From Parashewanella tropica (lineage in GTDB: Bacteria > Pseudomonadota > Gammaproteobacteria > Enterobacterales > Shewanellaceae): a stretch of DNA of 64,000 nucleotides. The DNA is taken from positions 3,690,001-3,754,000 of the forward strand of contig NZ_CP037951.1 of NCBI RefSeq assembly GCF_004358445.1, read 5' to 3'. Below the pieces are notes generated by a model, which was given only the letters and a program-made list of their open reading frames with translations, did not search any database and was not told the DNA's origin. The position numbers and the translations under genes were made by a program. Within the stretch, counting starts at the first letter, position 1; the number at the start of each line of letters is the position of its first letter. This document shows, piece after piece, positions 33,331 to 61,000 of this stretch.

Positions 33331-33371
33331 TATTCAATATACAAGTCTATAAATTGATTCAATCTTATAAA

Positions 33372-38807: not shown

Positions 38808-38823
38808 CATGGGACCCGATAAG

Positions 38824-40070: not shown

Positions 40071-41552
40071 ATGAAGCTAAATACAAAAACTCTCGCGCTT
40101 TCATTAGGCAGTTTCATTCTGTCTTGTAGCCTCTTCCCCAGTGTTGCGGCAACCAAAGCGCCTAGTACATTTGAAAAACAACCCAATATCATCTTTATTC
40201 TGGCGGATGATCAAGGTTGGAAAGATGTTGGCTTTAATGGCGCAGAATTCTATGAAACGCCTAATATTGACCGACTTGCTAGTGAAGGCATGACCTTTAC
40301 CGATGCCTATAGCGCTGGCCCAAACTGCGCACCAACTCGTGCATCATTTATTTCGGGTAGCTACACCCCAAGACATAAGATCTATACGCCAGGTGCGGCA
40401 TCGAAAGGCGATCCACGCTTAATGAAACTCAAAGTGGTATTGGATGACAAGCGCCTTAAATCTTTTGGCTTTAAATCAGGCCCTCGCCCATTTGAAGTAT
40501 TAAATGATTTAACCCCAAGTACCACCAGTGTCGCTGAAGTGCTAAAGCAGGCGGGATACACCAGTGCTCGTTTTGGGAAATGGCACGTTGGAAAAGATAC
40601 CCAAGGCTTTGATATCAGTAGTAGTGATGGTATCGCAGGCCCAGAGGGCAAATATTATAACGATGCCGATGCATCCGTTCGTATCACCGATGCCAGTGTC
40701 AATTTCATTAAACAGAATAAAGATAAGCCTTTCTTCTTGTTTATGTCGTATTGGGATGTTCATATTCCGTTAGTGGCCGATCCTAAAGTCGTCAAAAAGT
40801 ACAAAAACAAGCTTAAAGATCACCCTCTTCACAGCAGTGGTCGCAAATACAACCCAACGTATGCGGCGATGGTTGAAGCAGTTGATACAGGTGTAGGTCG
40901 AGTGTTGAAAACATTGGATCACTATCAACTTGATGAAAACACCCTTGTGATATATACCTCTGACAATGGCGGTCTGAATAATATCTCCATCAATGCGCCA
41001 TTACGTGGTGGTAAAGGCTCACTGTATGAAGGCGGTATTCGTGTCCCATTTGCCGCTCGCTGGACAGGAACCATCAAACCCAACAGCAAATCATCAACCC
41101 CAATCAATACCGTTGATATGCTGCCAACGTTTGCTGATATTGCCAAAACATCATTATCAAAAGTTAAGCAGCCATTAGATGGCATCAGCATTCTGCCTGC
41201 TCTGAAAGGGCAAGACGTAGAATCACGTTCATTATTTTGGCATTACCCACTTTACCTTTCAGGAAAAGGCTTACAAAACTATACGCCTGAGCCTTTAAGC
41301 AAAAATGCCAATACGGGGTGGAGAGGCAAGCCAGCCAGTGCCATTCGCTCAGGCGATTGGAAGCTCATTGAATATTTCGATGATGGACACCTTGAACTGT
41401 ATAACGTTAAACAAGACCTCAGCGAAAGCCAAAATCTCGCCAGCCAATATCCGAAGGTTGCCAAAAAACTACAGGATGAACTTATCCAATGGCGTAAAGA
41501 CACTCAAGCCGTAGTGCCAGAAAAAGGCCGCCCTGATTACAGAAAAAGATAA
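40071..41552 (+). CDS. Sulfatase (formylglycine type), exported
   Basis: A 493-aa S1-family sulfatase that starts two bases after the preceding stop. The signal peptide is about residues 1-27. Calcium ligands ADDQG (D46, D47) are followed by the formylglycine motif C86-A-P-T-R90 in PNCAPTRASF, GKWHVGK (about 170), DVHIPL and SDNGG (about 297). The Thr in CAPTR is a common variant of CxPSR. Substrate class is not readable: both sulfated sugars and aryl/amino-acid sulfates are possible. Maturation needs a formylglycine-generating enzyme that is not in this window. Confidence 0.93.
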   Translation: MKLNTKTLALSLGSFILSCSLFPSVAATKAPSTFEKQPNIIFILADDQGWKDVGFNGAEFYETPNIDRLASEGMTFTDAYSAGPNCAPTRASFISGSYTPRHKIYTPGAASKGDPRLMKLKVVLDDKRLKSFGFKSGPRPFEVLNDLTPSTTSVAEVLKQAGYTSARFGKWHVGKDTQGFDISSSDGIAGPEGKYYNDADASVRITDASVNFIKQNKDKPFFLFMSYWDVHIPLVADPKVVKKYKNKLKDHPLHSSGRKYNPTYAAMVEAVDTGVGRVLKTLDHYQLDENTLVIYTSDNGGLNNISINAPLRGGKGSLYEGGIRVPFAARWTGTIKPNSKSSTPINTVDMLPTFADIAKTSLSKVKQPLDGISILPALKGQDVESRSLFWHYPLYLSGKGLQNYTPEPLSKNANTGWRGKPASAIRSGDWKLIEYFDDGHLELYNVKQDLSESQNLASQYPKVAKKLQDELIQWRKDTQAVVPEKGRPDYRKR

Positions 41553-41566
41553 TGAAGGTACTTAAA

Positions 41567-42715
41567 ATGAAAACCAAATTAAGCTCAATTGCTATCGGTT
41601 GCTGTTCATTATTAATGAGTCACATTGGCTTAGCTGCCGAACAAAGTCAGGCTAAAAATGATAGCTTGATCCACATGGTCATGTTTACCCCCAAAGGACA
41701 AACAGCGCCACAAAAAACCGAGCAGCGTCTAAACGAAGTTGCCGATATTAGCGAAAAGTTTTTTAACCACTGGATGCACTATTGGGGCTATCCCGTTGCA
41801 CAGCCTTTTAAACTAAATCGTAATGCAAACGGTGACGTTAAGATCAATTATGTAGAAGGCCGTTATACGCATGCCAGTAAAAAATACGAAAACTATGGCT
41901 TTTATAAAAAGTCGGTAATTGCTCAGACTTCAAAGCAATACGATTTGCCAAAAGATCATCAATTTTGGTGGGCATTTTATTACCCTAAAAAAATAAAAAA
42001 AGGCGCTTATGTTGGCGGTGGTGATTTTCAGGGAGGGTTCTCTCGTGCAGGGTTTAAAGATGTTAACGGCAATATTGATGTCAATGGCTCATTAGCCGCT
42101 AAAGGCACCGCCGATGCTTTCTTACTGAAAGCGGTAGTCCATGAAATGGGACACGCATTAGGCTTACCTCACAATGGCCCACATATCAAAGATGGCTTAG
42201 GTAACTCTTTAATGGGACCCGTAAATAAGCGCTATAAGCAATTAAATAATGGTGATGAACGTGTCTATTTATCCAAAGCATCTTCGGCCATGTTATGGAA
42301 AAATCCTGTATTTACAGGCACAGACAAAGACATAGATAAAAAAATCAATTTTTCACTTAATGACTATCAAGCGCATTTTGACAAAAGCAAAAACCAAATC
42401 ATTGTCAAAGGCCAGTTAAAAACCGACTACCCTGCACACAGTGTTGTGATTGCTGATACGCCAAACTCGATAAAAAGTGCTTACTGGCAAAAAATGTACG
42501 TTTGTGACATTAAGGAAGGCGGAAAATTTACATGCGTCATCAACGAACCAGAGCAATCTAGCGGTAAATTACAAATGGTGTTCTGCTTTGATAATGGTGC
42601 CGTAATGGGGATCCCAAAATCTAAGCGCTCTAGAAGTAAAGAAAAACTCGTTTGGAATAAAGCTTTACGTAAGAAATATACCTTTAAGAAAGGTGAGTAT
42701 CAGTTTGAACAATAA
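41567..42715 (+). CDS. Exported metzincin-like zinc metalloprotease
   Basis: About 382 aa with a signal peptide (MKTKLSSIAIGCCSLLMSHI, cleaved near GLAA). The zinc motif HEMGHALGLPH (H192, E193, H196, H202) is the extended HExxHxxGxxH of metzincins. A Met-turn candidate NSLMGP follows about 20 residues later. The C-terminal roughly 150 aa are beta-rich with two cysteine pairs possible. The ATG at 41567 has AAGG upstream; an ATG overlapping the sulfatase stop is 15 nt earlier. It is the last gene before a strong terminator, so it is in one operon with the sulfatase and amidohydrolases. The family within metzincins is not assigned. Confidence 0.83.
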   Translation: MKTKLSSIAIGCCSLLMSHIGLAAEQSQAKNDSLIHMVMFTPKGQTAPQKTEQRLNEVADISEKFFNHWMHYWGYPVAQPFKLNRNANGDVKINYVEGRYTHASKKYENYGFYKKSVIAQTSKQYDLPKDHQFWWAFYYPKKIKKGAYVGGGDFQGGFSRAGFKDVNGNIDVNGSLAAKGTADAFLLKAVVHEMGHALGLPHNGPHIKDGLGNSLMGPVNKRYKQLNNGDERVYLSKASSAMLWKNPVFTGTDKDIDKKINFSLNDYQAHFDKSKNQIIVKGQLKTDYPAHSVVIADTPNSIKSAYWQKMYVCDIKEGGKFTCVINEPEQSSGKLQMVFCFDNGAVMGIPKSKRSRSKEKLVWNKALRKKYTFKKGEYQFEQ

Positions 42716-42816: not shown

Positions 42817-43512
42817 CTACAGATTAGAATTAATCAGCTCTATTGCTTCGTCCAAAATCTCTTTCACACATTGTCGTGCTGTATCAGGCTCACCCGATTT
42901 AATCGCATTCAAAATCTGTGTATGCGCTTCAATATCGCCAGTCGCACCTTTCGTTGCATTGGTATAACGAATACTGACTTTAAGCGCAGTACTAATAAAA
43001 TCCGTTAATTGAATAATAAACGGATTACCACTGGCTTTTAACAAACCAGTATGGAAGGCGATATCGGAATCTAAAGGATCATCTAAGCCTGTTTCTGCGG
43101 CTTTCATGCGTTCGAGTGCATAGGCGATTTCAGCAATTTCTTCATCAGTCGCATTGACTGCTGCTAGTGCTGCTGCACTCGGTTCAATGGCAGCGCGAAC
43201 TTCGGTAAATGATTTCAATACTTTCAGTGATGGGTTACTGCTCAAGATCCACCCCAAAACATCGGTATCAAACATATTCCAGCTTTCTTCTGGTAATACC
43301 GTGATCCCTTTTTTCGGTCTTGATGTGATCAAACCTTTTGCCGAGAGCATTTTAACTGCTTCTCGTGTTGCGCTGCGACTAACATCATATTCCACAGACA
43401 ATTCTGCCTCTGTGGGCAAACTTTCATTAACCTTATAAGTCCCTGTTACAATTGCTTTACCTAAATCATGCGTCAATTGATAGGTTAAGTTATGCTTTAT
43501 ATTTGTAGCCAT
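42817..43512 (-). CDS. GntR/FadR-family transcriptional regulator (FCD domain)
   Basis: A 231-aa repressor or activator. The N-terminal winged helix (about 8-75) has 'LPTEAELSVEYDVSRSATREAVKMLSAKGL' (seen in parts). The C-terminal all-helical FCD domain (about 95-225) has the metal-binding pattern DIAFHTGLL...EAHTQILNAI. The linker 'SWNMFDTDVLGWILSSNP' resembles DgoR-type regulators of sugar-acid metabolism, so a hexonate or similar organic acid effector is inferred. A FadR-type operator lies 145 bp upstream in the region shared with the divergent SDR gene. Confidence 0.9.
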   Translation of the reverse strand: MATNIKHNLTYQLTHDLGKAIVTGTYKVNESLPTEAELSVEYDVSRSATREAVKMLSAKGLITSRPKKGITVLPEESWNMFDTDVLGWILSSNPSLKVLKSFTEVRAAIEPSAAALAAVNATDEEIAEIAYALERMKAAETGLDDPLDSDIAFHTGLLKASGNPFIIQLTDFISTALKVSIRYTNATKGATGDIEAHTQILNAIKSGEPDTARQCVKEILDEAIELINSNL

Positions 43513-45581: not shown

Positions 45582-47135
45582 TTAATACCCGTTCTGCTTA
45601 ATATCTTGGATCTTCTGCTGCAATTGCTTCACCAATTCTGGGTGCTCAGCAGCGATATCATTCTTCTCACTTGGATCTTTTGATAGATCAAATAACTGTG
45701 GTTCATTACTGAAACCTACATCCATCTTTTTATCGGCAATCCAATCTGGGATCTTGCTGGCTTTATCAATCAACTTCCAGTTTTTGTAACGCAGTGATGT
45801 AGTACCTACTGACTCTTCAATCAGATACTCACGCGCGGTGTGGGACTTACCCATAAACACGTCTAAGAAATCATGGCTATCTTGAGCCTCACCTTCTGCA
45901 AGTGGTGCATTGATCAGCTTTGCAAAAGAAGCATATAGATCCATTTGTGAGATCAAAGCGTCTGATTCAGTTGGTTGGATTTTGCCTTTCCAATAAACAA
46001 TCGTTGGGACACGAGTTGCGCCTTCATAAGCACCGTACTTACCACCGCGATAAACACCACCCGGTTTGTGATCGCCAACCAGCTCTTTAGCTTGGTCAAA
46101 ATAGCCATCATGTAATACAGGGCCATTATCACTGGTGAAGACAATCATAGTGTTATCGTCAATACCTAAGCGCTCCAGCTCTTTTACGATTTCACCAGAA
46201 ATCCAATCCATTTGAACAATAGCGTCTCCTCTTGGCCCCATTGAACTTTTACCTTTAAAGCGCTCATGTGGCATTCTTGGTACATGGATATCATGGTAAG
46301 AATGGAATAAGAAAAACGGCTGATTTTTGTTAGCACGAATAAACTTAACCGCTTTTTCGGTAAAGATATCAGCAAACTCTTCGTCTTTCCAAAGGGCTTT
46401 TTCACCGCCAGTCATACTGCCCATGCGGCTAATACCATTAACGATGGTTTCGCTGTGCTCAAGATCCGCTGGGTATTTAAGTAATTCAGGGTGGGTCAAT
46501 CCTGTTGGTTTATTACCGACTTTTTCATGGTAACTTACGGTAATAGGGTCATTTTTATCTAAATTAACCACATTATGATTTTCAAGATAAACGGTAGGCA
46601 CTCGGTCACCGGTTGCAGGCAGTAAGAAACTGTAATCAAAACCGATTTCAAGTGGCCCAGGTTTAACGTCAGTGTTCCAATCGACGCTGCCGTTACCGAG
46701 TCCTAAGTGCCATTTACCCACAACAGCGGTCGCATAGCCCTGTTGTTTTAATAAAGACGGTAAGGTTTTCTTACCCGGACGAATAAGCAGTGGTGCATCA
46801 CCGGGTAAAATAGCGGCATCATTTCTAAAGCCATGCTCACCGGTAAGTAATGAGTAACGCGATGGCGTACAAGTCGCTGATGAAGAGTGTGCATCGGTGA
46901 ACATCACACCGCCTGCCGCTAACTTATCAATGTTTGGGGTTTCTACGCCTTTAGCGCCATATGCACCAACATCGCCATAACCAAGATCATCGACATAAAG
47001 CACGATCAAGTTTGGCTTTTGTTGTTTTTCAGTCGCCGCTTTTTCAACTGACGACTCAGGGGTACTTTGTTTGCTACAACCGGCTGATAACAGTACTAAC
47101 GCTGTTGCTACGGCTGTGGTTAACTTTTTTGCCAT
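45582..47135 (-). CDS. Sulfatase (formylglycine type), lipoprotein
   Basis: About 517 aa from the ATG at 47135. The signal peptide ends in a lipobox LLSAGC (lipid-modified C20), so it is membrane-anchored. Calcium ligands VDDLG (D49, D50), formylglycine motif C89-T-P-S-R, GKWHLGLG, 'HSYHDIHVP' and TSDNGP are intact. It reads in the same direction as the upstream sulfatase operon but is separated from it by the 161-bp repeat, so it may have its own transcript. The gene ends next to the cloverleaf element. Substrate unknown. Confidence 0.93.
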   Translation of the reverse strand: MAKKLTTAVATALVLLSAGCSKQSTPESSVEKAATEKQQKPNLIVLYVDDLGYGDVGAYGAKGVETPNIDKLAAGGVMFTDAHSSSATCTPSRYSLLTGEHGFRNDAAILPGDAPLLIRPGKKTLPSLLKQQGYATAVVGKWHLGLGNGSVDWNTDVKPGPLEIGFDYSFLLPATGDRVPTVYLENHNVVNLDKNDPITVSYHEKVGNKPTGLTHPELLKYPADLEHSETIVNGISRMGSMTGGEKALWKDEEFADIFTEKAVKFIRANKNQPFFLFHSYHDIHVPRMPHERFKGKSSMGPRGDAIVQMDWISGEIVKELERLGIDDNTMIVFTSDNGPVLHDGYFDQAKELVGDHKPGGVYRGGKYGAYEGATRVPTIVYWKGKIQPTESDALISQMDLYASFAKLINAPLAEGEAQDSHDFLDVFMGKSHTAREYLIEESVGTTSLRYKNWKLIDKASKIPDWIADKKMDVGFSNEPQLFDLSKDPSEKNDIAAEHPELVKQLQQKIQDIKQNGY

Positions 47136-47158: not shown

Positions 47159-47319
47159 ATACCATTCGTACCAATTAACTGTGTTATAAATGAAGCCGTT
47201 GCTTCGACACTACTGCGTTACAACTCCTCGCCATAGTCAAAACTATGACTCGTCTTTGTGCCTTGTATTGCCATTGCAAGGGCTCCCTAATAAACACTTT
47301 TAATTGATGTGAATGGTAT
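47159..47319. repeat. Dispersed 161-163-bp element, copy 2
   Basis: Same terminal inverted repeats and interior landmarks as the copy at 33168-33330 (ATACCATTCGTAC at the left, TGTGAATGGTAT at the right, central CCATAGTC..ACTATG and GCCTTGTATT). The interior differs in many positions, yet the central stem is conserved by compensating bases. It separates two sulfatase genes, and its last base belongs to the stop codon of the second. Confidence 0.75.
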
Positions 47320-48761
47320 TATTTTTTTAATGGTTTTAAAGAAAATTGTGGATGTGGGCTGCGCGCGCCATCCATCATTTTTGTTATTTTTTTCACTACG
47401 TTCGGGTATGTTGTGGCGACATTATTAAGTTCACCTGCGTCTTTAGATAAATCGTAAAGCTCAGCAGGCTTTTCATAGAATCGAACCAGCTTCCAATTTT
47501 GATGACGCACCGCCTGAATCGGTCCTTGGCGTTCATTAAATTCCCAATATAGGAAATCGTGCTGCGCTTGTTTGCGGTTTTTTATTAGTGTTGGAACAAG
47601 CGACACACCGTCTGTCTTAGGGCAATCCGCACCAGACAACTCACAGAAGGTTGGCATCATGTCCCACATTGCCGAGATATGGTCAGACTCTGTGTTAGGC
47701 TTGATTTTATTAGCCCATTTGGCAATGAATGGCACTCGAATGCCGCCTTCATATAAGTCGCGTTTCTTGCCTCGGAAAGGGCCGTTAGAATCAAAGAAAC
47801 CGTTGTCGTAGTGGTGGCCATTGTCTGATGCAAAAATCACTAAGGTATTGTCATCAAGCCCTTGCTGTTTTAACAGTTTCAGCAAAGAGCCAATATCTCT
47901 ATCCATTCGAGAAACCATACCTGCATAAGTCACATTACCTTCTTTATCATTGCGATAATGCCCTTCGGTATTCATCTTACGCTTTGGCCAGCCTAAGTCT
48001 TTATATTGGGCTTTAGAATCATCAGGTACCGTCATTGGCAGATGCGGAATGGTGTATGCCAGATACAAAAAGAATGGCTTGGTTTTGTCGCTTTGTTTGA
48101 TGTAATCAATGGCTTTATTGGTGAACAAGTCATGGGTATAAACCCCTTTATTGTTCATATAATCATTTTCTTTTAACCAATAAGGCGAGTTATTTTCCCA
48201 AAGTTTGTCCCAATAATAATAATGGGCATCACGGTGGTATTTGAAACCGAAGAAGTAATCAAAACCTTGCTGATTGGGCATACTTGGGTTGATTTTATCT
48301 TCAGGGAAAGTTCTGTCTTCGGTCATGCCCCATTTGCCAATTACCGCGGTTTGATAACCCGCGGTTTTTAGCATTTCACCTAAGGTGATGTCTGAATCTT
48401 GTAAATCATAGGGCTTACGGTTATCGGTCCATGTTGGGTTTCCGCGAACGGGGCTATTACCTGAATGCAAGCCAGTTAATAAACTGGCACGAGACGGACC
48501 ACACACGGTAGAACCAGCATAATGCTGCGTAAAACGGATACCTTCCGATGCCATTTGATCAAGATTTGGGGTTTTGATCTTAGTTTGACCGTAAGAGCCT
48601 AAATCCCCATACCCCATATCATCGGCCAAAATATAAATAATGTTGGGCTTTTGGGTTTCTGCGGTTTTTTCCGTCTGTTGTTCAGAAACAGTCGCACACG
48701 AAGTGCCACTGAGCAGTAGAGCCGCCATAAGGCTAATTGATGAGCATACTTTTAGATTCAT
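47319..48761 (-). CDS. Sulfatase (formylglycine type), coupled to patB-like gene
   Basis: 480 aa from the ATG at 48761, which overlaps the PatB-like stop in ATGA; a longer frame exists but MNLKVCSSIS begins a proper signal peptide (cleavage or lipidation near SGTSC). Calcium ligands ADDMG (D47, D48), the formylglycine motif C87-G-P-S-R91, GKWGM, 'YTIPHLPMTVP' and SDNGHH are present. 'GSYGQTKIKTPNLDQMA' is typical of the arylsulfatase-A-like branch. It is the last gene of the M28-NhaC-PatB-sulfatase operon. A dispersed repeat follows its stop. Confidence 0.93.
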   Translation of the reverse strand: MNLKVCSSISLMAALLLSGTSCATVSEQQTEKTAETQKPNIIYILADDMGYGDLGSYGQTKIKTPNLDQMASEGIRFTQHYAGSTVCGPSRASLLTGLHSGNSPVRGNPTWTDNRKPYDLQDSDITLGEMLKTAGYQTAVIGKWGMTEDRTFPEDKINPSMPNQQGFDYFFGFKYHRDAHYYYWDKLWENNSPYWLKENDYMNNKGVYTHDLFTNKAIDYIKQSDKTKPFFLYLAYTIPHLPMTVPDDSKAQYKDLGWPKRKMNTEGHYRNDKEGNVTYAGMVSRMDRDIGSLLKLLKQQGLDDNTLVIFASDNGHHYDNGFFDSNGPFRGKKRDLYEGGIRVPFIAKWANKIKPNTESDHISAMWDMMPTFCELSGADCPKTDGVSLVPTLIKNRKQAQHDFLYWEFNERQGPIQAVRHQNWKLVRFYEKPAELYDLSKDAGELNNVATTYPNVVKKITKMMDGARSPHPQFSLKPLKK

Positions 48762-49933
48762 GATGCAAATGCCTTTACGATACGTTGAAGTTTTTGTTCG
48801 AGTATTGAGCGTGGACAACTCAGGTTTAAGCGAATAAAGCCTTGTCCCGCTTCACCAAAATTTTCACCAGAATTCGCCAATAGCTTTTGCTCTTGAACCA
48901 ACTTTTCCATCATTTGTTGCTGAGAGAGTCCTAATTTACGGAAGTCTAACCAGACTAAATAGCTGGCCTCTGGTTTTTGGAATTTGATTTTCGGTATGTG
49001 AGTACTTAAATAATCAGCCGCGAAATCCATATTGGCTTCTAGGTAGCTCAGCATCTCATCCAGCCATGCTTCACCTTGTTCAAAAGCAGCAATACTCGCT
49101 TGTACACTCAAGCAACTAAAGACGTCCATGCCATAAGCCGATAATTTACGTTTAAGCTGCTCTGATAACTGGGTGTTTTTAATAATGGTATTGGCAAGCC
49201 TTAATGCCGTTAAACCAAAGGTCTTGGTTGGCGAGGTGCACACTGCAAGTTGTTGATGCCAATCAGAGTTAGTTGCCAAACAACTGTTGAAGCTTTTGCC
49301 ATATAAGTTGTAATCCGCCCACACTTCATCACTGATAAGCATCACTTGGTATTGGTGACAAAGCTCCACGACTCTTGATACTTCATCGCGTGTCCATAAA
49401 CGCCCAACAGGGTTGTGAGGGTTACAGAAAATCATGGCTTTTACGCCAGAGTTTAATTGCTTCTCAAGTAAGTCAAAATCAATTCGATAATAACCGTTAT
49501 CGTTGATTAGTTGATTGTTTACTAAAGTGCGGTCAAGATTATTCACCACTCTTGAAATGCCGTGATATATAGGCGTTTGTACCACGACCGCATCTTGCTC
49601 TTGAGTGGTTAACTCAATCAACATAGCCACCGCTGGTAAAATCCCCTCTGTAGTATGAAACCATTCTTTCTCAAGCGTTAAATTATGGCGTTTTTGATAC
49701 CAGTCTATGGCCGATTGATAATAACGTTCGCTGCGCTCTGAATAACCCAAAATTGGATGTTCTAGACGCTTGGTAACCGCTTCAACAATAGGTGCATAAA
49801 TCGCAAAATCAGAATCTGAAACACCACTGGCGAGCACTTGATCTGCATCAGCTTGCAGGCTTTCATCAAGAAAATCCCACTTTAAGCAATCAGTGCCTTG
49901 TCGTTGCCATATATGGTCAAAACTTATCGTCAT
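48758..49933 (-). CDS. PatB/MalY-type PLP enzyme (C-S lyase/aminotransferase)
   Basis: A 391-aa fold-type I PLP enzyme. The Schiff-base lysine lies in SPTKTFGL (K237); NPHNPVGRLW (about 171) and SDEVWADY (about 201) bind the cofactor; the C-terminal 'GFIRLNLSCPRSILEQ' carries the carboxylate-binding Arg. 'ILGYSERSERYYQSAIDWY' and 'EGILPAVAMLI' are characteristic of the MalY/PatB cystathionine beta-lyase group, which cleaves C-S bonds in cysteine conjugates. Cytoplasmic. It starts 8 bp after the transporter gene and is translationally coupled to a sulfatase gene. Confidence 0.9.
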   Translation of the reverse strand: MTISFDHIWQRQGTDCLKWDFLDESLQADADQVLASGVSDSDFAIYAPIVEAVTKRLEHPILGYSERSERYYQSAIDWYQKRHNLTLEKEWFHTTEGILPAVAMLIELTTQEQDAVVVQTPIYHGISRVVNNLDRTLVNNQLINDNGYYRIDFDLLEKQLNSGVKAMIFCNPHNPVGRLWTRDEVSRVVELCHQYQVMLISDEVWADYNLYGKSFNSCLATNSDWHQQLAVCTSPTKTFGLTALRLANTIIKNTQLSEQLKRKLSAYGMDVFSCLSVQASIAAFEQGEAWLDEMLSYLEANMDFAADYLSTHIPKIKFQKPEASYLVWLDFRKLGLSQQQMMEKLVQEQKLLANSGENFGEAGQGFIRLNLSCPRSILEQKLQRIVKAFAS

Positions 49934-49941
49934 CGTTATCC

Positions 49942-51420
49942 CTACCCGTTGACCACTTTGGGTTCATTTGATTTAGCACGAACAGTTGAAATCCCAATAC
50001 CTGTTGCCGCTAAAATTAAGGCAAAGATGACACCACTGTGACATTGGATCGCCCAAGGTAAATAATCCAAGGTTGGTACATTTAGAGTTGATGCCATAAA
50101 TACCCCAGCAGCCGTCCAAGGCATTAATGGCTCGATAACGGTACCCGCATCTTCGATAGTCCGGGACAGGTTAGTGTAGTTAAGTTTAAAGTCACGATAC
50201 ATGTCTTTAAATAGCTCAGCAGGCACAATCAGAGCCAACTTACCATCAGCAGTCGTCCCCACAACCAGCAAGGTCGTGGCAATGGTCGCACCAATCAAAC
50301 TAAAGACATTAGTGATCCCTTTAGCAAAATGCTGAACAATCACTTTTAAGCCGCCTGATACCGATAAGGCTCCCGCAAATGAAAAAGCACAAATTACAAG
50401 CAGCAGTACATCCAGCATTGATGCCACACCGCCACGATTTATGATTTTTGCAACATCAGGGTTAATCACGGTATCAGCAGGGAACATACTGCCATTAAAG
50501 CCATTTAAGAAGGCTTGAAAGATCACGTCTAAGCTGAAACCTTGGAAATAGAAGGCATTGAAACAACCTAAACCACAGGCCGCCAACATCACAGGAATGG
50601 TTGGATATTTTTTAATAGCACCAAACAAAACTAATACAGGTGGCAATAGTAGCAGCAGGTTTAAATCATAAAGCTGCTGTATATTAGCTAAAATCGCCGC
50701 TACTTCTTGAGAGGAAACCATTGGCTTAGAATCATCAACCTGAAGAGCAAAGGTAAAGACGATACAGCTTAAAATGAAACCAGGTATAGTAGTCCACAGC
50801 ATGTGCCTGATGTGGCTATACAAATCCGTACCCGCAACCGTAGGAGCAAGGTTAGTGGTATCGGAAAGCGGTGATAATTTATCACCAAAATAAGCGCCCG
50901 ATACCACTGCACCAGCTACTATCGCAACAGGCGCATTAAGACTGACAGCGACTCCCATTAACGCCACGCCTATGGTTCCAGCTGAACCCCATGATGTGCC
51001 AGTACATAAGGATACAAACGCCGTCACCAAAAATGCGGTGATGGCGAGATATTCAGGAGTAATAATGGCTAGGCCGTAATACACCAATAACGGAATGGTG
51101 CCACCAATCACCCAAGCACCAATTAAGCCACCCACTAACAACAAAATCAGTAATGATGGCATGGCATCCGAAAGTTTATGAACAATTGCTCTTTGGATAC
51201 TCAGCCAACTGTGCCCATGATAAACCGCTATCCCTGCTGCAAATACAGCAGAGATAATTAATAACGGCTCAATCGCAAGATCGTACTGACCATAGCCAAT
51301 CACTAATAACAAAAAAGTGACCAGAATGGGCAGCGATGCCATCATCAAACTCACGGGACGATGTTTTTTAGAAGGTTGCGAGGCCAAATCAGGCACATCT
51401 ACACTCTTATTTTGTTCCAT
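49942..51420 (-). CDS. NhaC-family Na+/H+ antiporter-like transporter
   Basis: A 492-aa inner-membrane protein with about 12 hydrophobic helices. 'TGTSWGSAGTIGVALMGVA' and 'AGAVVSGAYFGDKLSPLSDTTNLAP' are signatures of the NhaC family. Members exchange Na+ or H+, but several carry organic acids or amino acids, and pairing with PatB-like enzymes suggests that here. It lies 19 bp after the M28 peptidase and 8 bp before the PatB-like gene. Substrate not readable. Confidence 0.92.
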   Translation of the reverse strand: MEQNKSVDVPDLASQPSKKHRPVSLMMASLPILVTFLLLVIGYGQYDLAIEPLLIISAVFAAGIAVYHGHSWLSIQRAIVHKLSDAMPSLLILLLVGGLIGAWVIGGTIPLLVYYGLAIITPEYLAITAFLVTAFVSLCTGTSWGSAGTIGVALMGVAVSLNAPVAIVAGAVVSGAYFGDKLSPLSDTTNLAPTVAGTDLYSHIRHMLWTTIPGFILSCIVFTFALQVDDSKPMVSSQEVAAILANIQQLYDLNLLLLLPPVLVLFGAIKKYPTIPVMLAACGLGCFNAFYFQGFSLDVIFQAFLNGFNGSMFPADTVINPDVAKIINRGGVASMLDVLLLVICAFSFAGALSVSGGLKVIVQHFAKGITNVFSLIGATIATTLLVVGTTADGKLALIVPAELFKDMYRDFKLNYTNLSRTIEDAGTVIEPLMPWTAAGVFMASTLNVPTLDYLPWAIQCHSGVIFALILAATGIGISTVRAKSNEPKVVNG

Positions 51421-51439
51421 GGTGTTTACGGCCTTGTTG

Positions 51440-52834
51440 TTATTGTTTTACTGGCAAATGTGAAAATTCAACGTCAGATTCTGCAGCCATATAAATAACC
51501 GCCGCCCAAGCTGCGACATTTTGCTGCATCTGCTTAGGATCTAGCTTATCTAACGTATCATTTGGAGTATGGTGATAATCAAAATAATCGATGCCATTTT
51601 GACGTAGCGAGAATACAGGCACGCCTTTCATTCTAAATGGCCAGCTGTCCGGCCCACCACCTGCAGTGTTGTTGCCCTTTTCAATCCCTAATGGCGCAAG
51701 CACTTTCATGACGTTATCGACAAAATGTAGATCGCTTGATGCAAAATTACTGTCGAAACGGAAAATATTACTGCCACCAAAATCAGACTCTGATACCAGC
51801 TTAATGTTTTTCAGTTCAGCCATATGCTCACGTACATATTGCTTAGAGCCAACCAAACCAATTTCTTCAGCCGCCCACAGCACAAGACGAATAGTACGAC
51901 GTGGTTTTTGTGGCATTGCCGCAATCAGTCTTGCCGCTTCACTGACAATACCCACACCTGCGCCATCATCTAATGCGCCGGTACCTAAATCCCAAGAATC
52001 CAGGTGAGCACCAAGAATGATCACTTCTTCCGGCTTTTCACGGCCTTTAATTTCAGCAATCACATTTGCCGATTTACCCGCAGGCAAAATCTCAGTGGCT
52101 AGGGTCATACTCAGCTTAACGTGACCCGCTTTCTTAAGCATGGTAGCGAGAAGATTGGCATCAGGTGAAGACAATGCACCGATTGGAATTTTCTTGCTGC
52201 CTTTGGCGTAACTCATTTGCCCAGTATGAGCAAAACGATTTTTTGAGGTACCGATAGAGCGGATCACCACACCAATTGCACCTTTATCCGCCGCAATGCT
52301 AGCACTGGTACGACGAATGACCGAGTTTTTACCGTAACCGTTACCTTCACGATGCTTTGGCGTTAGTTCATCAACGAACGCAATTTTGCCTTTCAAGCTG
52401 CCTTTTTTGGCTTTTTTAAGTGCATCAAAAGAATCAAAGCGAACTACTGACGCGGTAATGCCATCTTTAGGGGTTGGTACACTGCCACCAAGTGCGGTAA
52501 TAACGAGCTTTTGAGGATATGGGAAAGTAATTTCAGCTTTCTCAACACCACGATGCCAAACAGGGATATCAACGTCTTCAGTGTATACCTTGTCAAAACC
52601 GAAAGACTTAAGTTTTTTAACCGCCCACTCAACCGCTCGTTCGTCATTTTTAGTACCCGGTAAACGGTGCCCAACTTCAACAGTCAGTGACTCGACGATG
52701 CCGTATGGATCAGAATGATTGAGAGCTTGTTCACGTAACTGAACAGCCTTGTCCGTTATAGAATCATGATTATGAGCAGCGACGTGCCCACTGAGTAATG
52801 CAACAACTAATGGAAGAAATTTTTTGTAGCTCAT
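51440..52834 (-). CDS. Exported M28 aminopeptidase with PA domain
   Basis: A 464-aa zinc exopeptidase with a signal peptide (about 1-20, ending VAA). An N-terminal segment and an inserted PA-type domain (about 90-240) precede the catalytic core. Zinc ligands are in GAHLDSWDLGTGALDDGAG (H, D), AAEEIGLVGS (catalytic Glu plus ligand), ESDFGG (D) and DYHHTPNDT (H). The family removes N-terminal residues or C-terminal Glu/Asp; the type is not certain. First gene of the M28-NhaC-PatB-sulfatase operon and divergent from another sulfatase over a compact promoter region. Confidence 0.92.
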   Translation of the reverse strand: MSYKKFLPLVVALLSGHVAAHNHDSITDKAVQLREQALNHSDPYGIVESLTVEVGHRLPGTKNDERAVEWAVKKLKSFGFDKVYTEDVDIPVWHRGVEKAEITFPYPQKLVITALGGSVPTPKDGITASVVRFDSFDALKKAKKGSLKGKIAFVDELTPKHREGNGYGKNSVIRRTSASIAADKGAIGVVIRSIGTSKNRFAHTGQMSYAKGSKKIPIGALSSPDANLLATMLKKAGHVKLSMTLATEILPAGKSANVIAEIKGREKPEEVIILGAHLDSWDLGTGALDDGAGVGIVSEAARLIAAMPQKPRRTIRLVLWAAEEIGLVGSKQYVREHMAELKNIKLVSESDFGGSNIFRFDSNFASSDLHFVDNVMKVLAPLGIEKGNNTAGGGPDSWPFRMKGVPVFSLRQNGIDYFDYHHTPNDTLDKLDPKQMQQNVAAWAAVIYMAAESDVEFSHLPVKQ

Positions 52835-52983: not shown

Positions 52984-54843
52984 ATGAAATTCCGCCTTTT
53001 GTATCAATGCGCTATCGTCACCTCCTTAGCCATTACTTCTGCACTCACTTTTGCGCAAGAAGTTAAACGCCCTAATTTTGTTTGGATCATTTCTGAAGAT
53101 AATTCTTCACATTATCTAAAACACTTTTCTGACAATGGGATAAATACCCCGAATATTTCAGCCTTGGCTGAATCAGGATTGACCTTTGATAATGCTTATT
53201 CAAACAGCCCTGTGTGTTCTGTTGCCCGCACAACGTTAGCGACTGGCGTTTATGCTCCCAGCATTGGCACTCAGTTTCATCGTGCAGATGCTAAACTACC
53301 GCAAACGAAAAATATAAAACTGTTTCAAAGCTACCTAAGCCAAAATGGCTATTACACTACCAATAATGCCAAAACTGATTACAACGTTGTAGCGGATAAG
53401 CAACAAGGTTGGCATCAATCTTCTAAGCAAGCTTCATGGCGCGATCGTAATAATGCAAATCAACCTTTCTTTCATGTCGAAACTCACCATGACAGTCATG
53501 AAGGACGATTGCATTTCAAAGACAAACAATATCAACAAGAAGTCAAACCTGAAACGTTAGCCGACATTAACGTACCGGATTACTTACCTGATACCCAACT
53601 GTCGCGATTTACTTATCAAAAGTACTTACAAAAAATGGTACAAATTGATGGCAAAGTCGGTGCTACCGTTGAAAAACTTCGTAAAGATGGATTACTAGAC
53701 GATACCTTTATTTTCTATTTTGGCGATCATGGTGGCGTACTACCACGCAGTAAAGGTTATCTATTTGACGCAGGACTTCGTGTCCCACTTGTAGTGCACG
53801 TACCAAAGAATTTTGAACACCTAGTGAATGCCGGTGCAGCAACACGAGTACAAGGCACGGTTGAATTTGTGGACTTTGCCCCGACGCTGTTAACACTTGC
53901 TGGTATTGAGCTACCAACGCATCTAGATGGTAAAGCCTTTCTCGGTGAGAACGTGTCGTTAGATGAGGTGAATAGCAGAGATGAGTCTATTGCCTACGCC
54001 GACCGCTTTGATGAAAAATATGACTTAGTGCGTTCACTTAAAAAAGGCAACTTCCGCTACGTTCGTAACTATCAAAGTTACTTACCTAATGGCCTACAGA
54101 ACAACTATCGCTATCGAATGTTAGCTTATCAAGAATGGCGTCAATTGCATAAACAAGGTAAGTTGAATGCTGTTCAATCACAGTTTTTCAATCCAAAGCC
54201 TGTAGAGCAACTGTTTGATACCAGCAAAGATCCGCACGAAGTGAATAATTTAGCGGCTGATCCCAAATACAAACCATTGCTAACCAATTTACGTGCACGT
54301 CTACAAACGCGTTTATTAGACTTACCCGATCTTGGTGTTTATCCTGAAAGCTATTTGATCCGTTATGGTATGCCAAACATTCAGGAATTTGCGCAAAAAA
54401 ATAAAGCTCATATCAACAAGCTATTTGCGATTGCTGATCTAAGCCTACTTCCATTTAATCAAGCTAAACCACAATTAGAAAAAGCACTGCAATCCAGTGA
54501 CCCAATGCAACGTTATTGGGCGGTGACGGCTGCCATTAACTTTGGTGAGCAGGCAAAAACTTTGTTAGCGAATATCAAACCACTTGTGAATGATCCAGAA
54601 GTCACAGTAAGAATTCGAGTTGCTGAGTACTTTGGCGTGATTGGCTATGGCAAACCACAAAAGATCCTCAGCAATATAGTGAATTCAACTCTTTACCCCA
54701 CAGTTGCCGCTGAAGCCTTTAATGCCATCGTATATTTGCATGATTTTTCTGATGGGAAATACCCTGCTGATGTTGAGAACCTAAAACCAAAAATCAAAGG
54801 TCGTGGTATCAACTGGCGTATGATGTATTTGAAGTCACTGTAA
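52984..54843 (+). CDS. Sulfatase-family protein with unusual CSVAR active site and HEAT-like tail
   Basis: 619 aa from the ATG at 52984, which begins a clear signal peptide (about 1-24, ending TFA); a longer frame would run back across the divergent promoter. The sulfatase domain has SEDNSS in place of the usual ADD (E38, D39), active-site C78-S-V-A-R82 instead of CxPSR, and FGDHGG instead of SDNG. The last roughly 130 residues look like HEAT repeats ('YWAVTAAINFGEQAKTLL', 'RIRVAEYFGVIGYG'). Distant members of the sulfatase superfamily share SEDN/DHG patterns. Whether the Cys is converted to formylglycine is open. It is divergent from M28. Confidence 0.85.
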   Translation: MKFRLLYQCAIVTSLAITSALTFAQEVKRPNFVWIISEDNSSHYLKHFSDNGINTPNISALAESGLTFDNAYSNSPVCSVARTTLATGVYAPSIGTQFHRADAKLPQTKNIKLFQSYLSQNGYYTTNNAKTDYNVVADKQQGWHQSSKQASWRDRNNANQPFFHVETHHDSHEGRLHFKDKQYQQEVKPETLADINVPDYLPDTQLSRFTYQKYLQKMVQIDGKVGATVEKLRKDGLLDDTFIFYFGDHGGVLPRSKGYLFDAGLRVPLVVHVPKNFEHLVNAGAATRVQGTVEFVDFAPTLLTLAGIELPTHLDGKAFLGENVSLDEVNSRDESIAYADRFDEKYDLVRSLKKGNFRYVRNYQSYLPNGLQNNYRYRMLAYQEWRQLHKQGKLNAVQSQFFNPKPVEQLFDTSKDPHEVNNLAADPKYKPLLTNLRARLQTRLLDLPDLGVYPESYLIRYGMPNIQEFAQKNKAHINKLFAIADLSLLPFNQAKPQLEKALQSSDPMQRYWAVTAAINFGEQAKTLLANIKPLVNDPEVTVRIRVAEYFGVIGYGKPQKILSNIVNSTLYPTVAAEAFNAIVYLHDFSDGKYPADVENLKPKIKGRGINWRMMYLKSL

Positions 54844-54898: not shown

Positions 54899-54979
54899 AA
54901 TTTATACATATTGTCTCTTTAAAAGAAATAACAATTTATTTACAATACAAGTCCTTTTAATCACTTGCATGGAAGTAAA

Positions 54980-56956
54980 ATGAAAAGGTCTTTCATCTTT
55001 TTTTGTTCACTTTTAACGTCGCTAACGCTTTTCACATTAAGTACTCAAGCCCAAATTCCAAAAGACATTAATAAACAAGCAGAATTTTTTAGCAAACCGT
55101 ATGAATATTCGGATGTAAAAATCTCCCCGAAAGGCAGCTACATCAGCATTATCTCCAACAGAAAGAACATTAGACAGTTAGCGATTTTAGACGCTAAAAC
55201 ATTCAAACCTATCTATTCAGCTCGCTTTTCAGGGGATGAAGAAGTAGGCGCTTATGTTTGGGTGAGCGATAAACGTGTTGCTATGCAAAAGGTATACAAT
55301 CGCGGTTGGTCTGAAGTGCCAGAATATTTGGGTGAAATTTTTGCTATCAATGCTGATGGACACAGAGCGACTTACTTATTTGGACAAAAATACAAGGGTA
55401 GACAAAGTGGTAACCATAATACAGCTGTTCATGCGATTGGTTACATTCAACATCCCTTGGCTAATGATGATAGGCATATGTTGATCAAAGCCTACCCTAT
55501 TGGCAGTGGGAATGAAGGCTTTATGTCAAGAGCAAAAGCACAACTGTATAAAGTCAATGTTTATACTGGTAGTCGAAAGAAGATAACTACAGCTCCAATA
55601 GAAAATGCTAGCTTTGTATTAAATAGCCAACAGCAACCAATCTTTGTAAGTGGTATCAACTCCAACAATGAAGTAAGATATTTCCAGCATATTGAGCAAA
55701 AATGGATAGATATTGATTCGATTACTAAGCAATTCAAGCAGTTTTCAATATTATCAACCACTAATGATAATCAGCATGTGTTAGTTGAAGGACAAAAAGA
55801 TCATGATCTGCAATCAATATACAAGCTCAACCTTAGCAGCGGCAAAGCCGAACGAATTGTTTCAAATAAAAACGTCGAACCACAAAAGATTTGGAAAGAT
55901 AAGCATACTAACGAAGTTTACGCTGTTGAGTTTGAAGATGGTTACCCAAATTATGCTTTCCTTGACAAGGATCACCCAAGAACAAAAAGACTAAAAGTTC
56001 TGTTGCAATCGTTACCTGGACATCAAGTTCATATAGTCAGCGAAACCCTTGACGGTAACATATCCATCTTAAAAGCATTCAACGATCGCAACCCCGGTAC
56101 TTATTATCTCTACAATCAAAAAGAAAATAAGCTCCAAAATATCGCTGCGCAGAAACCTTGGATTGACCCGAATGACTTAGCCGATGTCAAACCCGTCAGC
56201 TTCAAGAGCCGTGATGGATTAACCATTCATGGCTACATCACACTGCCTTATGGTATTGAGCATAAAAACCTACCTCTTGTTGTAAACCCGCATGGTGGAC
56301 CTGCTGCGCGTGATTACTGGGAGTACAACTCTCAAAATCAATTCCTTGCACAAAATGGTATTGCCACATTACAAATAAACTTCCGCGGCTCTTCTGGTTA
56401 TGGTCAAGACCACCAGCAAGCAGGCAACCTGAACTGGGGAACCAAAGTACAGCATGACATTATTGATGGCGTTAATTATGCCATCAAGCAAGGCTGGATT
56501 AACAAAGACAAAATTTGTATCGAGGGCGGCAGTTTTGGTGCATACAGTGCCCTGCAAAGTGCTGTGATCGAGCCTGATATGTTTAAGTGTGCCATTGGCA
56601 TTGCTGGGGTTTATGATCTACCTCTGATGAAAGAAGAAGGCGATATTCCTTCGGTTAATTTCGGCGATAGTTTCCTCGAAGAGGTTATCGGTAATGACAT
56701 CAACCGCATGAAAGCTATGTCTCCGACTTATAATGTGGATAAGCTCAAAACCAAAATCATGTTGGTTCATGGTAAAAAAGATGAGCGTACGCCTATTGAG
56801 CAATACGAAGCCATGGAAGAAGCCTTGAATAAAGCCAATTACCCATTTAAAAAAATGATCTTTAAAAAGGAAGGTCATGGCTTATATAATCCAGAGAATA
56901 GAGCCTTGTACTACAAAGAGATGCTTGGATTTATAAAAGAAAGCCTCAAACTCTAA
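54980..56956 (+). CDS. Exported S9 prolyl oligopeptidase-family peptidase
   Basis: A serine peptidase of about 658 aa with a signal peptide (MKRSFIFFCSLLTSLTLFTL, cleaved near TQA). The N-terminal roughly 400 residues form a beta-propeller-like region. The C-terminal alpha/beta-hydrolase has the nucleophile in EGGSFGAY (S518), Asp in KKDERTP (D601) and His in KEGHGLYN (H633). HGGP gives the oxyanion hole. The best match is the dipeptidyl/acylaminoacyl peptidase branch. GGAAG precedes the ATG at 54980; a TTG five codons earlier is in frame. It complements the M28 and amidohydrolase enzymes in peptide breakdown. Confidence 0.92.
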   Translation: MKRSFIFFCSLLTSLTLFTLSTQAQIPKDINKQAEFFSKPYEYSDVKISPKGSYISIISNRKNIRQLAILDAKTFKPIYSARFSGDEEVGAYVWVSDKRVAMQKVYNRGWSEVPEYLGEIFAINADGHRATYLFGQKYKGRQSGNHNTAVHAIGYIQHPLANDDRHMLIKAYPIGSGNEGFMSRAKAQLYKVNVYTGSRKKITTAPIENASFVLNSQQQPIFVSGINSNNEVRYFQHIEQKWIDIDSITKQFKQFSILSTTNDNQHVLVEGQKDHDLQSIYKLNLSSGKAERIVSNKNVEPQKIWKDKHTNEVYAVEFEDGYPNYAFLDKDHPRTKRLKVLLQSLPGHQVHIVSETLDGNISILKAFNDRNPGTYYLYNQKENKLQNIAAQKPWIDPNDLADVKPVSFKSRDGLTIHGYITLPYGIEHKNLPLVVNPHGGPAARDYWEYNSQNQFLAQNGIATLQINFRGSSGYGQDHQQAGNLNWGTKVQHDIIDGVNYAIKQGWINKDKICIEGGSFGAYSALQSAVIEPDMFKCAIGIAGVYDLPLMKEEGDIPSVNFGDSFLEEVIGNDINRMKAMSPTYNVDKLKTKIMLVHGKKDERTPIEQYEAMEEALNKANYPFKKMIFKKEGHGLYNPENRALYYKEMLGFIKESLKL

Positions 56957-58045: not shown

Positions 58046-61000
58046 ATGAGTGTACAAGTGGATGTTCGAACACCAAACCATATCGGTTTTTCTGATCCTG
58101 CACACCTCAAGAAAAAAACACTGGATAGTTCAGACGACACATTAAAATGGAAACAAACTAAAGAAGCCGACGCCTCAATTCAACAGTGGCATAAGGGTAC
58201 ATCAAACCAGAACCCATCGACCAAAACATCTCGATCACCTAAACAAAACAAAGCCTCCCCCTCTCTCAGTGAGCTTGACCCGAAGTTCGTCCAAAGTGTT
58301 AACAGTTACACTGAAGAATTAGAACAAGGCATTCAGCTATATCAAGAAACAGGAGATATCAAATCATGCCTGTATGCTATCAGGAAACTGAACGCTTTAG
58401 CCTCACAACTGAACATTTCAAATGCAAAAAATACAAGGCCGAATCAACTGACGCCCCTCAGAAAAGAGTGCATACAAACCCATTTTTTGCCACCCTATGT
58501 AGAGTTTCTCACAGCCTTTATCCATCAACAGCAAAAGCATGGGATCAAGCTCAACCCCTATGCGGCGGCAATCTATAATCAGTTGGTTTCTTTAGTTCCC
58601 TATTTAACCGAACCACAACGACAGCACGTCATAGAGCCACTACGGACGTTTATGGTAACAAAGCTCGATGCAGACTTTGATTACGCACAGTTCGTTTTAA
58701 GAGCCAACCAAACCGATCTGCTTACTTTCGAACTGGCAAGCATGGATGATTTAATTAGACCAGATACCAATCTATCTAAATTTAAATTAATTCCAGAATC
58801 ACAACTAAAGGAATACAGAGAGCGCATAAGACAATTAAGGCATCTAGCAAGAGTAACACCGCCAATCAAAACTCGATTATCTCCCATTGAATCCACAGCC
58901 TTAGAGCTCATAGACAAAAACCAACTGACTCAACTTGATACTCTGCTTTGGCGCACTCATGGGGATGTCCTTTGCCATCTTCAAAGAATGCTGGCCCAAA
59001 AAACATTTAAAAACTTACTTAGCTACCAAAACGAAGTGACGAGCTTTATGGGCATTTCAAGTACTTGCTACATGAGTACGCTGCAAACACTGCTATTGAT
59101 ATATAACAACACCCCACACACAGTTAAGAGTGTCAGTTTTGTAAGATTAAAATTTTCTGAGCTGTTATCAGATACTGTCATGAGTTGTCTATTATTGTTA
59201 GATCACGAACAAGACGCTGACCAAATCTCAGAGATACTCAACTTAATTGGCTCCGTACCTAATGCGAGTAAACTGCTTTCTGCAGAGTCTCAACGGGTTA
59301 TAGAAATATACCAATCGCCAATCACTCAATTGGAGCCTGCTGTTCAATCAAGATTGAAATCAGGGGTAATATTACAACGCTATTTCTGCCATTTTTTCCA
59401 TTCAATGAATCAAAGAAAATTTGATTGCATGTTGGTGACTCTAGCGCTTATTTTTACTCCACCTGTCAGTGAAGAGCCTACGTTATTCCCGGCTCATTTC
59501 AGAAAACTCAAGCAAAAGGTCGCGCAATCGATCAAATCACGTTCTTGTCTAAAGCTGGCTCGATATTACAGTGAGATGCCGAATCAAACGGATAGTGGTA
59601 AAGCTTCATTAAGAGTCGCGTTCGCCGCTCATCAAACTCAAATTCTCGCCTTTTCCCCACTGCATTTTTTATACCATAGTGAGAGAGAACATGCGCGAAT
59701 GGGTAAAATATCATGCCTTGCTTGGGATAACTTACTCAAGAGGATTAAAGATCAGGTGTACGAGCCATCGAACATGACTCAATTACTGCAATTGTACGCA
59801 CTCAATCCTGATTGTAGTAGCTTATTGCCTTATACCGAGACATTATTGTGTGTCATGTTAAGCCATCTTTTAGATGAACAAGCAACCTGTCAGACTTCCG
59901 ATAAACTCGCTCCAGAAGACATGAGGCACCTTGTTAACTTCTCAACTGTATTACTTAATAAATTAACCACAACACCAACCCCCGTTGTAAAAGCCAAAAC
60001 CATTACACAATTGCAAACATCACTTGAAAACTATCAAAGTGTAGCCACTGAACTTGATGAGCATGCAGCGCTATTCCCCATTAGCCACGTACTGCCAATG
60101 TTATGTAACCCTCAGTTAGTTTTCGCTATGTCTTCGCCACTAACAGAAATAACACCTGAAATCTGCCGAAGAGTCATTAATGCGATGTCGAGCAGTATGA
60201 AAGAAAAGGACTTGGAAGCAGCGTTAATTGCATTTAATAAATTGGTTTTCTATAAAAGAGAAATTGAAGACGTATTAGATCCTGAACACAAAACTCTTGC
60301 TTGTCTGTATGCCGGCGCTCAGGAAATCTTTACCACTCGGTTATTACTTCCCTTTATCACGATGCTCGGAGCTGAGTTAACGGTTACCCCGCATTATTTT
60401 ATGACGAACGATCCCAGCAAAAAGAAACAAGAAATGGCTAAGCTAAACGTATTAGCTTGCAGTCAGAGCGCTGAAATTCAACATCAATGGCAACACCTTG
60501 CCAGTAAGCTTTGGTCTCAATCAGTGTATCTTATGGTTCTAGATAGTACCGTGCTAACCAAAGAGCATGTGGATGACTTACTGGCATTAAAATTCATCAG
60601 CTTTGATGTTCATGACGATAAGGTAAAACCGTATCTAGTCCTTGCGATTTGTAGCGTGGCCAACCAATCAGAACTCGCAAATACCTTTAATGGAAAAGTA
60701 CAGTTAACAGCAATCTACCAATGGGCTATCTCATTAGCTAGCCATCCAGAATATGCTTCGTTATCAGAAACACTAAAAAACAAACTTTGCCTTGCAATCC
60801 AGCAACTCGAAAACTACGTAGTACTGAAATGCTCCCCCTTTTCAGTAAGCGACCTCCTTATAAGACGTCGCCATTATTTACCGCCTAAAACGCTTGAAGT
60901 AAAGACGATGATGGCATCAAGTCACCATCCCCAAAAGACAGTAACAAAAACCATTGCACTGACAATGGACGTTGGGCTGCCAAACGTGAACGAGTTACTC

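Follow-up and report, generated by a model that had tools for sequence, protein, structure and literature searches.

What does a sulfatase do in one operon with an NhaC-family transporter and a PatB-type lyase? The question is raised by a stretch of 64,000 nucleotides of the Parashewanella tropica genome (contig NZ_CP037951.1, positions 3,690,001 to 3,754,000 of the forward strand), called here the window. An original prediction, made from the sequence alone, read four of its genes (M28 peptidase, NhaC, PatB and sulfatase) as a joint pathway for sulfated peptides or amino acids. Our own answer, which we rank first but hold with rather less than even confidence, is that the operon is composite. 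A mobile NhaC-PatB cassette would have entered, in a common ancestor of two species of the genus, an island of genes for sulfated galacto-glycoconjugates, and its substrate would be a desulfated glyco-amino-acid.

The four-gene set itself is real. The coordinates bear out the predicted order, all on the minus strand, together with the intergenic gaps (19 bp, then 8 bp) and the ATGA overlap, and a second sulfatase gene (B), not part of the original prediction, comes next after sulfatase A. Matches to hidden Markov models (HMM) and to solved structures give the following assignments:

51440-52834, minus strand: M28 metallopeptidase, exported, operon gene 1 (PF04389, Peptidase_M28, 131 bits; top solved relative 3iib, 498 bits)
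49942-51420, minus strand: NhaC-family transporter of the PatB-linked clade (Na_H_antiporter; TIGR00931, 496.8 bits, cut-off 370)
48758-49933, minus strand: PatB/MalY-type beta-lyase dependent on pyridoxal phosphate (PLP) (TIGR04350, 370.5 bits over residues 5-389, cut-off 340)
47319-48761, minus strand: sulfatase A, S1_20-like, predicted 3S-galactose type (Sulfatase HMM PF00884, 213 bits; 7an1, 331 bits; CGPSR motif)
45582-47135, minus strand: sulfatase B, S1_15, predicted 6S-galactose type (9bas S1_15A, 645 bits; 9bau S1_15B, 615 bits; lipobox LSAGC by eye)

The ATG of sulfatase A at 48761 forms the 4-nt overlap with the PatB stop, while a longer open reading frame (ORF) started by TTG at 48818 is a mechanical call. 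By eye, the M28 protein and sulfatase A carry N-terminal signal peptides; PatB is without one, and NhaC belongs to a membrane family. The predicted gene identities, translational coupling and compartments hold, judged by HMM family, spacing and signals.

The whole block is found in a second species of the genus (G004), without the S9 peptidase gene and at 79-97% identity. There M28, NhaC, PatB and sulfatase A are 94-97% identical to those of the window, and since order and spacing recur (gaps of 20 and 8, overlap of 4 nt) the arrangement exceeds chance. Conservation of the four-gene order, which the original prediction had offered as its test, was found in these two genomes only. The search covered 117 relatives, the genus, 394 genomes of the order (the best three or four first-look candidates being scored in each), 321 genomes of the class, in which the window genome (G000) was the sole match, and the best 80 named NhaC loci. 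In three other genomes of the genus (G001-G003) the window PatB finds nothing at E<=1e-60, and NhaC finds only a 38-39% paralogue; their six PF00884 hits (381-613 aa), judged unread by frame length and score, are unlike the island sulfatases. Plasmids were searched separately with sulfatase A, which matched 16 records, and with PatB, which matched 89, and the five places read were without the four-gene set. Sulfatase A homologues at E<=1e-90 occur in five of the 394 order genomes, G000 included, and no NhaC, PatB or M28 gene lies in the 20-39 kb read around the other four. We also considered M28 as part of the NhaC-PatB unit and rejected it: at E<=1e-140 it is found in 44 of the 394 genomes, G000 included, and the three neighbourhoods read (L115-L117) hold neither PatB nor NhaC.

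NhaC and PatB, by comparison, travel together widely. A scan of a species-genome collection with an NhaC alignment, of which the best 80 loci were kept, a search of the order that gave matches in 33 of its 394 genomes (E<=1e-115) and three earlier loci gave 113 NhaC neighbourhoods. Together with 14 PatB loci that lack NhaC (L005-L018, whose flanks reach about 1.5 kb), these make up the 127 loci read (L021-L023, L024-L103, L118-L147 and L005-L018). PatB adjoins NhaC in 48 of the 113. The pairing follows the NhaC score closely: at about 439 bits or more, PatB is adjacent in 47 of 51 loci, to which L144 is added, a pair despite its split NhaC frame (343 bits for the larger piece), and at 404 bits or less in none of 61. 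The four high-scoring loci without PatB are L136 (contig edge), L031 (5-kb contig), L036 and L039. L042 was scored as unpaired (NhaC 400 bits; a 100-bit PatB match lies about 1.8 kb upstream, beyond an intervening gene). The pairs come from Enterobacteriaceae, Vibrionaceae, Succinivibrionaceae, Paenibacillus, Clostridiales and Actinomycetaceae, and also from two genomes of the family to which the window belongs. A LacI-NhaC-PatB cassette of about 3.8 kb is also carried by plasmids of Vibrio parahaemolyticus (L154) and Serratia proteamaculans (L155), the two records read among the 89 of 72,556 plasmid records with PatB homologues (E<=1e-60). On these comparative grounds NhaC-PatB is an old recurring unit and, to all appearance, a mobile cassette. 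In two of the high-scoring loci without PatB, Bhargavaea L036 and Edaphobacillus L039 (NhaC at about 10000-11500), a gene of beta-aspartyl-dipeptidase type adjoins NhaC instead (TIGR01975, 443 bits, in L036; by eye in L039), hinting at an amino-acid or dipeptide cargo.

The company kept by the pair is sugar-related. Three architectures recur: LacI-NhaC-PatB, which is that of the window's clade; PatB-NhaC with XylR, xylAB or xylFGH; and a PAS_6/HTH_22 regulator, in some loci together with RidA. Within 6 kb, xylA is found at 11 of the 48 pair loci and at none of the 65 unpaired controls (Fisher p 4e-5). When organism repeats are reduced to clusters (L026/L134 and L032/L135 share identical NhaC, giving 14 pair and 51 control clusters) the counts are 5 and 0 (p 2e-4). 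These controls come from the same scan and from other lineages, so that a lineage effect is only partly controlled. The xylose-linked pairs (L021, L033, L034, L037, L137, L140 and L142-L146) are spread over several gammaproteobacterial families and Actinomycetota, their xylA is often accompanied by xylB, XylR and xylFGH, and NCBIfam backs the XylA identity for L037 and L033. Over the same distance RidA lies near 7 of 48 pairs and none of the 65 controls, PAS_6/HTH_22 near 10 and none, and LacI near 25 and 3; there is one ROK neighbour. A generic sugar-ABC seed (XylG) matches both sets (6/48 pairs, 7/65 controls). No M28 or sulfatase gene lies within 6 kb of any of the 48 pairs (E<=1e-12), the nearest exceptions being a sulfatase-family match of 88 bits 6.7 kb beyond the pair in L025 and one of 26 bits upstream in L119.

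Within this family the window proteins are divergent. In a tree that took in 26 of the 65 unpaired NhaC and left out L144 and L029, the window NhaC falls in a 27-row clade (100/100), with L118/L119 as its sister (100/99). Its end branch is 1.31 against a median of 0.24, which makes the placement less sure. The group names in this tree are our own labels: 'LacI_NP' includes L022 and L023, which have no LacI within 6 kb, and 'rid' includes rows without RidA. In PatB, K237 and D202, which we take to bind PLP, and R368, presumably the substrate arginine, are present, as they are in the aligned rows reaching these columns. Trp205, in the SDEIH motif, is shared with 26 related rows where the other rows have His (Tyr in one distant row), and may alter the PLP site. 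The window PatB shows Gly37 where its clade has Trp. The long NhaC branch and Gly37 look as if the substrate had changed after the cassette joined the sulfatases.

The second partner is a set of four sulfatases. Besides A and B, the island holds two more:

52984-54843, plus strand: sulfatase C, S1_8C-like, predicted 2S-galactose type, divergent from M28 (9bba S1_8C, 536 bits over residues 89-672; motif CSVAR)
40071-41552, plus strand: sulfatase D, S1_16-like, predicted 4S-galactose type (9fo1, kappa-carrageenan S1_16, 306 bits)

The start of sulfatase C was picked via its signal peptide (the mechanical ORF starts at 52798), and its motif is CSVAR, not CxPxR. The best solved relatives of sulfatase A are 7an1 (331 bits) and 7ana (303 bits; next 244), which we take to be BT1636 and BT1622 of family S1_20. 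The alignment covers residues 36-476, nearly end to end. At the galactose site described for S1_20, residues H180, D319 and R334 align with chain residues H178, E335 and R354; His and Arg are thus kept, and Glu is replaced by Asp. Sulfatases B and C are similar over their full length to the solved S1_15 and S1_8C enzymes, and by manual count a Trp of sulfatase B aligns with Trp471 of S1_15A. In Bacteroides thetaiotaomicron, S1_20 is reported to use His for the axial O4 and Glu and Arg for O2, and S1_20, S1_15 and S1_16 to act on 3S-, 6S- and 4S-Gal/GalNAc (PMC10154612). S1_8C and S1_15 of Pseudoalteromonas distincta are described as acting on the galactose 2S and 6S of lambda-carrageenan (PMC12549532). 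The four enzymes together plausibly cover all sulfatable positions of galactose (C 2S, A 3S, D 4S, B 6S).

Gene context agrees with a sugar target for sulfatase A. A locus of genome G137 (L108/L109) has orthologues of A (62-65%), B (57%) and C (46%) and a 34% relative of D; its five sulfatases are accompanied by three GH2 glycoside hydrolases, an MFS_2 sugar transporter and LacI, and no NhaC, PatB or M28 is found in it. The GH2 enzymes are above the Pfam cut-off, and their nearest NCBIfam models (GalB for two, LacZ-type beta-galactosidase for the third) are all just to well below cut-off; perhaps this is a sulfated beta-galactan locus. Relatives of sulfatase A in Catenovulum and Persicobacter adjoin other sulfatases, while the neighbours of the Flammeovirga relative are uninformative. 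Sulfatase A is therefore, by family, a carbohydrate-type sulfatase. The original prediction would have been refuted by an enzyme acting only on polysaccharide sulfates; the S1_20 relatives and the GH2 context support the carbohydrate family, and a restriction to polysaccharides does not follow from them. Inside the G137 locus there is also, by eye, a transposase-like gene.

From these parts a composite pathway may be sketched. Outside the cytoplasm, sulfatases A and B would take the 3-O- and 6-O-sulfates off galactose-type residues, C and D the 2-O- and 4-O-sulfates, and M28 would trim amino acids from the peptide part. NhaC would then import, by an ion gradient, a small beta-substituted alanine, such as a cysteine conjugate or a glycosylated serine or cysteine, and PatB would carry out PLP-dependent beta-elimination to a leaving group and 2-aminoacrylate, which would give pyruvate and ammonia. 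The substrate would be a glyco-amino-acid, freed of its sulfate, that remains from sulfated glycoproteins or proteoglycans. The RidA neighbours of the sister pairs would agree with release of 2-aminoacrylate. As far as we are aware, little is known of how the sugar-amino-acid stubs of digested glycoproteins and proteoglycans are cleared by bacteria. LmbF, a PLP enzyme of lincosamide biosynthesis, is described as beta-eliminating S-glycosyl-cysteine (PMC11794154); because of this precedent sugar-bearing substrates are chemically feasible, and PatB may cleave a glycosylated amino acid. Of the substrates first proposed, sulfotyrosyl peptides and sulfate esters of sulfur amino acids find no support in the sulfatase family or the context of its orthologues, and sulfated glycopeptides stay possible, being slightly favoured because the sister pairs stand in sugar operons and the genome has no GH2. 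The joint pathway first proposed is thus partly supported: it fails its own test of conserved linkage, is weakened by the sugar-type sulfatase, and survives in its glycopeptide variant only.

Several points weigh against the composite pathway. A shared operon is not a shared pathway, and the four-gene set is known from two species only, in one of which (G004, a draft) the M28 frame is broken once, possibly by a sequencing error. The xylose context belongs to sister clades whose PatB has His205, not to the window's own Trp205 clade, and the long branch and altered residues fit relaxed constraint equally well. The sulfate positions assigned to all four sulfatases rest on similarity to solved enzymes. 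In the literature we saw no example of a PatB with a glycosyl amino acid as its substrate. Finally, no candidate sulfatase maturase in the genome passed its test: in two tandem PF03781 proteins with the FGE-sulfatase domain (L150, 6200-7839), inspection by eye shows no catalytic cysteine pair like that of formylglycine-generating enzyme, and the best match to the anSME model TIGR03942 scores 85 bits against a cut-off of 349.

The strongest rival, nearly as likely as the joint glycopeptide pathway, is that two unrelated functions share one transcript through a recent, neutral junction: NhaC-PatB would scavenge cysteine S-conjugates or cystathionine as a source of sulfur or carbon, the sulfatases would desulfate galactans or free galactose sulfates, and M28 would be a general aminopeptidase. 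The pair and the S1_20/S1_15 sulfatases are indeed each found apart elsewhere, their linkage being confined to G000 and G004. PatB and MalY proteins are described as cystathionine beta-lyases (PMC11203769), and MetT, an NhaC-superfamily protein under S-box control, as a potential methionine transporter (PMC2940859). However, the overlap and order are kept in G004 at about 94% identity, and the neighbouring xylA, LacI and single ROK genes suggest a role with sugars, not with sulfur. An Rfam search at gathering score found no S-box or T-box in six Gram-positive pair loci, where only three tRNAs were detected, and nothing in window positions 33000-58100.

A doubtful alternative generalises the sugar context, making NhaC-PatB a cassette for glycosylated amino acids as such. 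NhaC would import S-glycosyl-cysteine or an O-glycosyl-serine (for instance xylosyl- or galactosyl-serine) that remains when proteoglycans or glycoproteins are broken down, and PatB would split its bond to the sugar by PLP-dependent beta-elimination, setting free the sugar and 2-aminoacrylate. Downstream steps and controls would come from the neighbouring xylose operons, RidA, LacI and ROK kinase, and the window operon would be the sulfated-glycopeptide version. Also unlikely is a galactan locus of carrageenan-like type, decayed or partial, in which NhaC, PatB and M28 are bystanders. The nearest relatives of sulfatases B and C are lambda-carrageenan cascade enzymes, A-C have orthologues in the G137 GH2 locus, and a TonB-dependent receptor opens the island. 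Against this, an HMM scan of 16 island proteins found no glycoside hydrolase or sugar transporter, and a genome-wide search found no GH2 (other glycoside hydrolase families were not searched); the genome therefore cannot finish a beta-galactan by GH2 as G137 or P. distincta may. A glycoside hydrolase or lyase linked to sulfatases, which marks a polysaccharide utilisation locus, is absent among the same 16 proteins, and the island has five peptidase- or amidohydrolase-type genes. Least probable by far is that sulfotyrosyl peptides or sulfur-amino-acid sulfate esters are desulfated, imported and cleaved at C-S, since, although the compartments fit (M28 and sulfatase exported, NhaC in the membrane, PatB cytosolic), sulfatase A aligns near end to end with S1_20 and keeps the galactose-recognition His and Arg, and the surroundings of its relatives hold sulfatases or glycan genes except in Flammeovirga; we reject these substrates on the family of the enzyme and the context of its orthologues.

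The operon differs from each known system that it resembles. Sulfatases B and C match S1_15A and S1_8C of the P. distincta U2A lambda-carrageenan cascade (S1_15A/B, S1_8A-C; PMC12549532), whereas the island has peptidases and NhaC-PatB and no glycoside hydrolase among the scanned proteins. Sulfatase A resembles the B. thetaiotaomicron S1_20 mucin sulfatases BT1636 and BT1622 in its retained His and Arg, with Asp for Glu (PMC10154612), and differs in its operon with PatB and NhaC and in an island without mucin glycosidases. PatB aligns near full length and above cut-off with the PatB/MalY C-S beta-lyases (TIGR04350; solved 4dgt, 6qp3, 3t32 and 1d2f), sharing the catalytic Lys; its Trp for the usual His of SDEIH, its Gly for the clade's Trp37 and its NhaC partner set it apart. 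NhaC passes the NhaC cut-off and scores 291 bits with the ArcD model, below the cut-off of 650; it is set apart from MetT- and ArcD-type amino-acid transporters of the superfamily by its place in the PatB-linked clades, and no S-box was found. The G137 locus shares the A-C orthologues and the relative of D, and differs by its three GH2, MFS_2 and LacI and by having no NhaC, PatB or M28.

Family membership, gene order, narrow distribution and the separate occurrence of cassette and sulfatases elsewhere are established at the level of comparative genomics. The NhaC-PatB cassette and its sugar-operon company is a more interesting object than the four-gene linkage. As a plasmid-borne LacI-NhaC-PatB unit with relatives in sugar operons, it is a candidate for glycosyl-amino-acid catabolism, which the window joins to sulfate removal; in open-access titles and abstract openings, a weak search, we found no paper on glycosyl-serine catabolism and none tying NhaC to PatB. 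If the joint pathway is wrong, the locus illustrates how neat operon spacing can suggest a pathway whose parts stand apart elsewhere.

The island block spans 33372-56956, with four sulfatases, a TonB-dependent receptor, peptidases, a regulator, NhaC and PatB, and is flanked by what we take, from their translations, to be slmA- and pyrE-type genes. It also holds an SDR, a signal peptidase and a metallo-beta-lactamase-fold protein. Its other features are:

34738-37356, plus strand: TonB-dependent receptor, opening the other gene run of the island (TIGR01782, 626 bits; 79% in G004)
37422-38807 and 38809-40068, plus strand: two amidohydrolase-superfamily proteins, exported by eye (PF01979; weak Xaa-Pro dipeptidase matches far below cut-off)
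41552-42715, plus strand: M10/matrixin-like protein, exported by eye (PF00413, 24.2 bits, marginal to the cut-off of 24)
42817-43512, minus strand: GntR/FadR-type regulator (PF00392 and PF07729)
47165-47322 (limits approximate), no strand: repeat of 158 bp resembling a miniature inverted-repeat transposable element, between sulfatases A and B (12 genome copies counting this one, 72-100% identity; absent here in G004)
54965-56956, plus strand: S9 prolyl-oligopeptidase-type peptidase (PF00326, 159 bits; no counterpart in the G004 block, L020)

The regulator is 44% identical to one adjoining two sulfatases in Catenovulum. Sulfatases A and B are 27 bp apart in G004, while in the window the repeat insertion separates them; a second copy of the repeat (33174-33333) adjoins the island on its slmA side. 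Between sulfatase C, folE and pyrE, G004 is missing the S9 gene and one for a protein of 1375 aa (58046-62173). The other four PF00884 matches in the genome (frames of 556-610 aa) resemble, by eye, membrane enzymes of phosphoethanolamine-transferase type. Elsewhere in the genome, near the PF03781 pair of L150, a xylose isomerase gene (11641-12972; TIGR02630, 697 bits) adjoins a sugar MFS gene. At L151 (1249-3897, outside the window), a protein that by eye is radical SAM/SPASM-like adjoins one of 357 aa whose tail is a cysteine-rich repeat; the two may form a pair for the maturation of a ribosomal peptide.

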